Shown: positions 44,687 to 46,070 of the stretch, one piece after another | Layout: each line of letters starts with the position of its first letter | Numbering within the stretch: the stretch's first letter is position 1 | Origin: Acidimicrobiaceae bacterium | GTDB lineage: Bacteria > Actinomycetota > Acidimicrobiia > Acidimicrobiales > RAAP-2 | NCBI GenBank assembly: GCA_003155915.1 | Contig: PMFA01000006.1 | Span: 53,313 to 117,312, forward strand | Direction: 5' to 3' | DNA length: 64,000 bases | Notes under the pieces: generated by a model | What the model saw: only the letters and a program-made list of their open reading frames with translations | Database searches by the model: none | What the model was told of the DNA's origin: nothing | Program-made: the position numbers and the translations under genes

Positions 44687-45082
44687 TCAGTGTTCGCGCT
44701 GACCGATGACGATCGAGAGCGGCAGGGTCACGAGAGTGGCGCCGCCATCGGTCGTGCGCTTGAATCGCTTGGATTCGGTCCCGTCAGGGGAGGCCCCGGC
44801 GGCGATTCCGGTGACCGTGACCGACCAGGTGTGGTCGTTCGGATCGAGGCCGTCAATCTGGACCGAGATGACGTCGCCACGCCGGGCGGCCAGTAAAACA
44901 GCGTTTTCGCGGCTCGAAATCAACAGATGGTCCTCTTCCATCAGTTCGATTCGCGCCGGCAGCGCGGCCGGGAGGGCGCCCAGGGAGAGCAGGACTCGCG
45001 CGACGTCGGCCTGGTCGAGCAGACGCAGGCATTCGTCGCGAGAGAGGGGTTCGCTGGAGAGTGACGGACTCGGTGACGTCAT
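44687..45082 (-). CDS. Pyridoxamine 5'-phosphate oxidase-like split-barrel protein
   Basis: The 131-residue protein has the start of a flavin-nucleotide-binding split barrel: LSRDECLRLLDQADVARVLL, then a beta strand pattern PARIELMEEDHLLIS and a central VSVQIDGL-type strand (VISVQIDGLDPNDHTWSVTV). Proteins of this size and pattern in actinobacteria bind FMN or F420; the cofactor here is uncertain. It is the first gene of a three-gene operon with the sensor kinase and response regulator, so it may be part of the same redox response. Confidence 0.62.
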   Translation of the reverse strand: MTSPSPSLSSEPLSRDECLRLLDQADVARVLLSLGALPAALPARIELMEEDHLLISSRENAVLLAARRGDVISVQIDGLDPNDHTWSVTVTGIAAGASPDGTESKRFKRTTDGGATLVTLPLSIVIGQREH

Positions 45083-45193
45083 GTGACCATCATGGAGCCA
45101 TTTTCCTTATGACTGCTAGGGTCGTGAGTCACATTCGCGGCAACTATGATGGATAGACCGGATGGTCGCGTCGGGACGAATTCGGCCTGACTT

Positions 45194-45221
45194 TTGCGTT
45201 TTGCCGAAATTTTGGTAGAAT
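45194..45221 (+). promoter_or_regulatory. Promoter of infA-rpmJ-rpsM operon
   Basis: TTGCGT (45194-45199), 16 bp, TAGAAT (45216-45221), predicting a start near 45228 and an 86-nt leader. The 231-base gap between the divergent flavin-protein gene and infA holds no gene that I can see. Another -10-like TATGAT is at 45145-45150. Confidence 0.52.
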
Positions 45222-45257
45222 TGTCAGCCGACCTCTTGGCATGCCTCGAGGTCCATC

Positions 45258-45283
45258 CGTGAAGGAGTTTTTGTTCCTTCACG
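45258..45283 (+). promoter_or_regulatory. Hairpin in the infA leader
   Basis: CGTGAAGGA (45258-45266) pairs perfectly with TCCTTCACG (45275-45283) around an 8-nt U-rich loop. It hides a Shine-Dalgarno-like GAAGGA and ends 17 nt before the real AAGGAG of infA. It may affect translation of infA or act as an mRNA stabiliser. Confidence 0.55.
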
Positions 45284-45313
45284 TCCCGCCGTGCCGTTAC
45301 AAGGAGAAAGAAC

Positions 45314-45538
45314 CTGAGCAAGCCAAAGGAAGACGCGTTCACCGTTGAGGGGACCGTCGTCGAGCCATTACCGAACGCCATGTTTCGCGTGGAATTAGAG
45401 AACGGGTATACCGTCCTCGCGCACAGCTCAGGAAAGATGCGCATGCACCGCATTCGCATCCTTCCCGGGGACAAGGTCCAGGTGGAGATCACTCCGTACG
45501 ACATGACCCGCGGTCGCATCACCTACCGCTACAAATAG
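45314..45538 (+). CDS. infA: Translation initiation factor IF-1, CTG start
   Basis: The 74-residue protein is unmistakably IF-1: [55 protein letters not shown] and the end GRITYRYK. It blocks the A site during initiation. The frame is open from 45263 to 45538, yet contains no ATG, GTG or TTG before the conserved region. The only suitable codon is CTG at 45314, placed 7 nt after AAGGAG (45301-45306). The resulting length equals the family's usual 72-74 residues. Starting at the first internal ATG would remove the first strand. Confidence 0.93.
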
Positions 45539-45569
45539 CTCCAGTTCTAGAAGATCGAGAAAGAGAATC

Positions 45570-45683
45570 ATGAAGGTTCGCGCAAGCGTCAAGCCCATGT
45601 GTGAGAAGTGCAAGGTCATACGCAGGGCCGGTGTCGTCCGGGTTATCTGCGAGCAGCCCCGCCACAAGCAGCGCCAGGGCTAG
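45570..45683 (+). CDS. rpmJ: 50S ribosomal protein L36
   Basis: The 37-residue protein reads [20 protein letters not shown] and on to RHKQRQG. The zinc ligands Cys11, Cys14, Cys27 and His32 are all present, so this is the zinc form. It lies 31 bases after infA and 9 bases before rpsM, the usual alpha-operon order. Confidence 0.97.
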
Positions 45684-45692
45684 GAGAAGAAC

Positions 45693-46070
45693 ATGGCCCG
45701 TATTGCTGGAGTGGACATCCCGCGCGAAAAGCGCACGGTGATCGCTCTCACCTACATCTTTGGCGTTGGCCCGACCATCGCCCAGCAGGTCTGCGCCTCG
45801 ACCGGCGTCGACGAGTCGACGCGCGTGAAGGACCTCAGCGAAGCCGACGTCAACAAACTTCGCGCCTACATCGACCAGAACGTCACCGTCGAAGGTGACC
45901 TTCGTCGTGACGTCGCCCAAGACATCAAGCGCAAAATGGAGATCAACTGCTTCCAGGGGATCCGCCACCGCAAGGGCCTGCCCGTGCATGGTCAGCGCAC
46001 CCGTACGAATGCTCGCACCCGTAAGGGACCGAAGCGCACTGTCGCCGGTAAGAAGAAGGTAACGAAGTAA
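45693..46070 (+). CDS. rpsM: 30S ribosomal protein S13
   Basis: The 125-residue protein begins [20 protein letters not shown] and ends with a basic tail after [20 protein letters not shown], complete S13. It bridges the 30S head to the 50S subunit and contacts the P-site tRNA. The stop overlaps rpsK as TAATG. Confidence 0.98.

Follow-up and report, generated by a model that had tools for sequence, protein, structure and literature searches.

CTG as the apparent start codon of infA in most Acidimicrobiales and a possible infC-like control of IF-1 synthesis

Described systems with weak start codons

Among translation factor genes, infC is well known for being regulated by way of the weak codon at which its own translation starts. 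UUG, by comparison, is an ordinary bacterial start, and genes that prefer non-AUG starts have reportedly been described by Gvozdjak and Samanta (arXiv, 2020). According to the excerpts available from one study (PMC5472188), infC starts with ATT in E. coli and with ATC in Streptomyces, IF3 represses non-canonical starts, and infC is autoregulated by IF3; in Streptomyces the GTC start of sigR is repressed by extra IF3, and this repression is relieved in IF3 fidelity mutants. Portions of a second study (PMC11497404) give the output from CUG as 0.86% of that from AUG and state that IF1 augments IF2 and IF3, while the accessible part of a preprint (PMC13345285) describes IF1 and IF3 as a joint quality control. 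For chloroplasts, an excerpt (PMC9845219) names UUG as the start of infA in both Chlorella vulgaris and tobacco. In the open-access literature, the matches listed contain neither a description of a CTG or ATT start of a bacterial infA nor an account that applies the infC principle to this gene.

The infA locus of the window

The window, i.e., the whole stretch of 64,000 nucleotides that was analyzed, belongs to a genome of 2.5 Mb whose assembly is 95.65% complete. It contains infA at the head of a same-strand run of ribosomal genes comprising rpmJ, rpsM, rpsK, and rpsD (Table 1), with which infA is probably co-transcribed. The preliminary description had reported that the infA frame lacks ATG, GTG, and TTG upstream of its conserved part and that a CTG located 7 nt after AAGGAG yields an IF-1 of the usual length. 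Both statements were borne out when the frame was read up to the TGA that closes it on the 5' side: it is open from 45263 to the TAG, with none of the three canonical codons ahead of the conserved IF-1 sequence, and the product reaches 121.9 bits against NCBIfam TIGR00008 (cut-off 61.15; profile positions 1-69 of 69). Solved IF-1 structures match the product in sequence comparisons as well (best E 4.8e-31). Judged by its sequence, the product is a plain IF-1.

Upstream of the gene, a TAGAAT at 45216-45221 resembles a -10 box. A promoter scan of the region upstream of infA called no sigma-70 site, and a search of 45050-45700 for known RNA families returned none up to an E of 1.

Table 1. Features at the infA locus (positions in the window)
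Feature	Position	Strand	Remarks
In-frame stop TGA closing the infA frame on the 5' side	45260..45262	+	
Leader hairpin, stem of 9-10 bp	45258..45283	+	covaries in 36 chosen genus leaders
Shine-Dalgarno AAGGAG of infA	45301..45306	+	spacing to CTG of 7 nt
infA, translation initiation factor IF-1, 74 residues	45314..45538	+	apparent start CTG 45314-45316, stop TAG 45536-45538
rpmJ (L36)	45570..45683	+	ATG start; downstream control gene
rpsM (S13)	45693..46070	+	ATG start; downstream control gene

The start codon across relatives

The infA start was read in three genome sets, with families and kinship taken from the labels of the genome collection searched. The first set, which includes 60 other genomes of the genus, gave infA in 94 of 100 genomes, all of which were read with the exception of a second, partial match of 30 residues in G032. 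In the second set infA was found in 142 of 148 genomes; all 32 sister-group genomes and 29 of the 74 other class genomes were read, and the genus counts do not include G215 and G228. The third set gave infA in 118 of 119 genomes, and 60 of the 108 outside the class were read. Two follow-ups, on family f71 and on the class of genome G304, matched infA in 39 and 41 genomes, and 30 loci were read in each.

In the genus, all 59 loci read have CTG as the aligned infA codon. The rest of the family has it in 3 of 3 loci and the rest of the order in 50 of 55 (54 genomes, 38 families), the others being ATC (2), TTG (2), and GTG (1). In the sister group, a grouping made for this analysis that unites class members with an AKPKDD-like N-terminus, we found CTG in 23, GTA in 5, and GTC, GTT, ATC, and ATG in 1 each of 32 loci (13 families). 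The codon is thus non-canonical in 114 of the 117 genus, family, and order loci, five of which (L068, L080, L330, L333, and L334, all from the order) had their start assigned by eye. Comparison of related genomes had been proposed as a check of the CTG start, and its outcome strongly supports this start, which is not peculiar to the genome of the window but common to most of the order and of the sister group. Two order relatives with complete contigs (L066/L287 and L329) have CTG and no canonical start before the upstream stop. Since three order families carry TTG (f14, f35) or GTG (f6) and one sister family carries ATG, the weak start is not indispensable.

Two cases deserve separate mention. 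Genome G067 has two infA loci (L064, L065), both with CTG after a GAGGAG- or AAGGAG-like site, and the infA of L057 contains an internal repeat, with matches to residues 1-38 and then 19-74, an apparent in-frame duplication of 60 bp.

In the rest of the class, where 74 genomes gave an infA match, each of the 29 loci read has a canonical start 8-17 codons before the conserved Glu-Gly, including L235, which has ATC at the usual place and was counted as canonical because an ATG lies 14 codons before Glu-Gly. Outside the class, 32 of the 40 loci of the first phylum sample have a canonical start at this distance, 6 have one only 19-40 codons upstream and are ambiguous, and 2, from families f71 and f89, have none. 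The actinobacterial family f71 (L378-L407) has ATT in 28 and ATC in 2 of 30 loci read, both of them codons familiar from infC, and in 26 of these 30 the frame between the seventh codon and the upstream stop lacks a canonical start; its rpmJ starts with ATG in all 29 loci where it was found, and in some loci the codon preceding the infA start is near-cognate, too. In the two loci read from f89 the aligned codon is ATA, directly preceded by ATT or ATC. A named collection contributed 80 infA loci. Of these, 20 are acidimicrobial, 11 according to their record titles and the remainder on account of the N-terminus or a matching contig, and they have CTG in 18, ATC in 1, and TTG in 1; in each of the other 60 the start is canonical, lying 19-21 codons upstream in two of them.

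A further CTG was seen outside both groups, in genome G304 of family f81 (L433, the same gene as L365), where it follows GAGGAAGAGGA and has no canonical alternative. The other 29 infA loci read in the class of this genome are all canonical, and two further f81 loci (G248, G314) have a canonical codon no nearer than 19 or 39 codons upstream.

The weakness of the codon is kept while the codon itself changes among CTG, ATC, GTA, GTC, and GTT. One explanation for such a codon is that it arose by chance in an ancestor and was repaired by a strong Shine-Dalgarno, with no regulatory use. A strong Shine-Dalgarno does accompany the weak codon, but CTG is one base away from ATG, GTG, and TTG, and yet canonical codons are confined to three of the genus, family, and order loci; moreover, the sister-group codon shifts among weak ones, and weak codons are also present in the separate family f71. 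We therefore regard a neutral relic as improbable.

To judge where infA coding begins, we counted pairwise differences among 55 distinct genus sequences, from which L057 was dropped owing to its internal duplication. The ten codons before CTG show 542 synonymous and 8335 non-synonymous differences and codons 2-22 of infA show 10648 and 1148, respectively, while CTG itself is invariant. Coding constraint is thus absent before CTG and strong in codons 2-22, where variation is mostly synonymous, indicating that infA coding begins at CTG. Just upstream of CTG, good conservation in the genus extends to the Shine-Dalgarno and to an AAC or GAC triplet; of 58 loci, 50 have a spacing of 7 nt from the Shine-Dalgarno to CTG and 8 have one of 6 nt. 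Several relatives have a stop immediately 5' of CTG (a TAG in L063) or a spacer that is one base shorter, and no canonical start occurs up to the upstream stop in 66 of 149 related loci (genus 20/59, family 3/3, order 29/55, sister group 14/32). In the order and family loci, CTN starts are CTG without exception (49/49), whereas the internal Leu codon that precedes Glu-Gly is CTG in 14 of 46 (Fisher p 1e-14, uncorrected for kinship).

The codon could still mislead if it reflected a sequencing error, or if translation began upstream, began at the internal ATG (codon 23), or involved frameshifting. The 51 residues after the internal ATG still match the NCBIfam infA profile with 93.7 bits (cut-off 61.15), so that pipelines could accept a truncated infA. 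However, an ATG or GTG at 45314-45316 in relatives, named beforehand as the sign of a sequencing error, was looked for and is absent from the 59 genus loci read, and the control genes start normally: rpmJ, found in 216 of 240 loci (outgroups and some duplicates included), has a canonical start in every one, and rpsM, matched in 196 of the 240, has one in 195, the remaining match being judged false because it runs through a stop. A sequencing error was rejected on these grounds. An upstream start was rejected owing to the stops and the lack of coding constraint before CTG, with the spacer indels also speaking against it, and a start at the internal ATG owing to the protein-level constraint on codons 2-22. 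An artefact or another start is thus largely refuted and in our opinion very improbable, and it is nearly certain from the comparative data that CTG 45314 is the infA start and the sole plausible one. In three genus loci (L043, L049, L349) an in-frame ATG lies two codons upstream of CTG, 0-1 nt from the Shine-Dalgarno, and might in principle serve as the start in these loci. The infA start is likewise less certain in 10 of the 32 sister-group loci, in which an in-frame GTG located inside or next to the Shine-Dalgarno stands 14 codons ahead of Glu-Gly.

Shine-Dalgarno strength, infC and a possible control of infA

The strength of the infA Shine-Dalgarno was assessed from predicted anti-Shine-Dalgarno pairing energies with rpmJ as the only comparison gene; the 16S tail used for all values is an assumed one, because no 16S was found when it was looked for in the source assembly. 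The predicted medians of infA and rpmJ are -8.3 and -5.7 kcal/mol in the genus, -9.3 and -5.6 kcal/mol in the order (where a few values are approximate, since the aligned position was used for the five starts placed by eye), and -10.1 and -5.8 kcal/mol in the sister group. Class members with ordinary infA starts gave predicted medians of -6.2 (29 loci) and -6.4 kcal/mol (12 loci). By median, the infA Shine-Dalgarno is thus stronger than that of rpmJ in the weak-start groups, but not where the infA start is canonical. The combination of a strong site with a weak codon is what would be expected of initiation that is efficient when allowed and yet sensitive to the codon check.

These values also bear on a simpler explanation, in which the weak codon just lowers IF-1 output relative to the ribosomal proteins encoded behind infA, at a fixed level and without feedback. 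The position of infA directly before rpmJ, rpsM, rpsK, and rpsD on the same strand fits such down-tuning, as does the weak CUG initiation in E. coli stated in the portions of PMC11497404. Nevertheless, a weaker Shine-Dalgarno could also give low output, and yet the median strength of the infA site exceeds that of the rpmJ site in the groups with weak codons; in addition, the separate family f71 pairs its ATT with a Shine-Dalgarno-like sequence. We consider fixed down-tuning unlikely, although less so than a neutral relic.

The preliminary description had also proposed that a hairpin just upstream hides an AAGGA. The hairpin is real, and its 5' arm contains AAGGA (45262-45266), but its 3' end stops 17 nt short of the working Shine-Dalgarno, which is therefore not hidden. 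In an alignment of 36 of the 57 distinct genus leaders, picked by eye for having the hairpin (the other 21 differ), 92% of the cells are paired, both sides have changed in 8 of 10 pairs, and double-change cells number 37 versus 13.7 in shuffles; none of 500 shuffles attained the observed value in four covariation measures, and 25 of 500 did so in a fifth, further pair types. The hairpin is thus conserved in part of the genus. Many of the 36 leaders carry GGAG on one side of the stem and CTCC on the opposite side. Taken as a whole, the infA leader has an unremarkable fold (z -1.07).

The preliminary description had compared infA with infC. The infC start was read in 43 of the 60 genomes with infC (of 61 searched). 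In the order it is ATA in 15 and ATC in 7 of 22 loci, and 21 of the 22 have no canonical start within 20 codons. In the genus it is ATC in 21 of 21 loci, well placed after the Shine-Dalgarno; 20 of these also contain a GTG in frame, three codons beyond the ATC, which makes the parallel less certain there. The genome of the window is among the 21, and its infC (L273, G000:C17:38280-39600) shows both features, with the ATC six bases after AAGGAG. The parallel thus appears weakened within the genus and firm in the order. The analogy itself gains indirect support from the ATA and ATC starts of infC in the order, from an infA codon that shifts mostly among weak starts, and from the strong Shine-Dalgarno that goes with it.

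A changed initiator tRNA that reads CTG was considered and rejected: the assembly contains one exact match to the initiator tRNA, with anticodon CAT, and the other pattern match had 2 mismatches.

Weak infC starts, the reported repression by IF3, and the aid that IF1 gives to IF3 together lead us to propose that infA is gated by IF3 with IF1. Ordinary initiator tRNA would translate infA from CTG 45314 on the strong Shine-Dalgarno, presumably with Met as the first residue. Because the codon is weak, infA translation would depend on the strictness of the ribosomal start-codon check that IF3 performs with the help of IF1. At high occupancy of 30S subunits by IF3 and IF1, the CUG complex would be rejected and little IF-1 made, while at low occupancy more IF-1 would be made; the net effect would be a negative feedback of the infC type, in which we infer both the repression by IF3 and IF1 and the feedback. 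That IF-1 synthesis uses a conserved weak start and is limited in this manner by initiation fidelity, as an infC-like control acting on infA, is in our judgment the best explanation and a fairly probable one.

A more tentative extension, which we regard as possible but somewhat doubtful, is that IF-1 senses itself, with infA in the Acidimicrobiales and the sister group, and separately in the AUU-start family, under start-codon-dependent autogenous control in which IF1 and IF3 would form a coupled fidelity thermostat. At the sequence level, such self-sensing by IF1 would look no different from control by IF3 only or from a fixed low output.

If infA is indeed gated by initiation fidelity, it would be a second initiation factor gene with the infC signature, present in most of the order and the sister group and, with AUU, in another family. 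Start-codon strictness would then be sensed more widely, and these genomes would offer natural material on what IF1 adds to the discrimination by IF3. As gene finders assume ATG, GTG, or TTG starts, annotated genomes of this group may lack infA or list a shortened version of it.

Of the described systems, chloroplast infA is alike in having a non-AUG start on the same gene and differs in that this start is UUG, the excerpt of the source (PMC9845219) mentioning neither CUG nor AUU starts of infA. The sigR gene, as presented in the excerpts, is likewise an actinobacterial gene with a non-canonical start; it encodes a sigma factor with a shown response to the IF3 level and to IF3 fidelity mutants, whereas infA encodes part of the initiation machinery and is known here from sequence. 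The closest likeness is to infC. The gene here is infA, its codon is CTG (GTA, GTC, GTT, ATC, or ATT in relatives), and the repression by IF3 that the excerpts report for infC would have to be extended to it; what the two share is an initiation factor gene, a weak, non-canonical, and conserved start, and a proposed feedback through start-codon discrimination.
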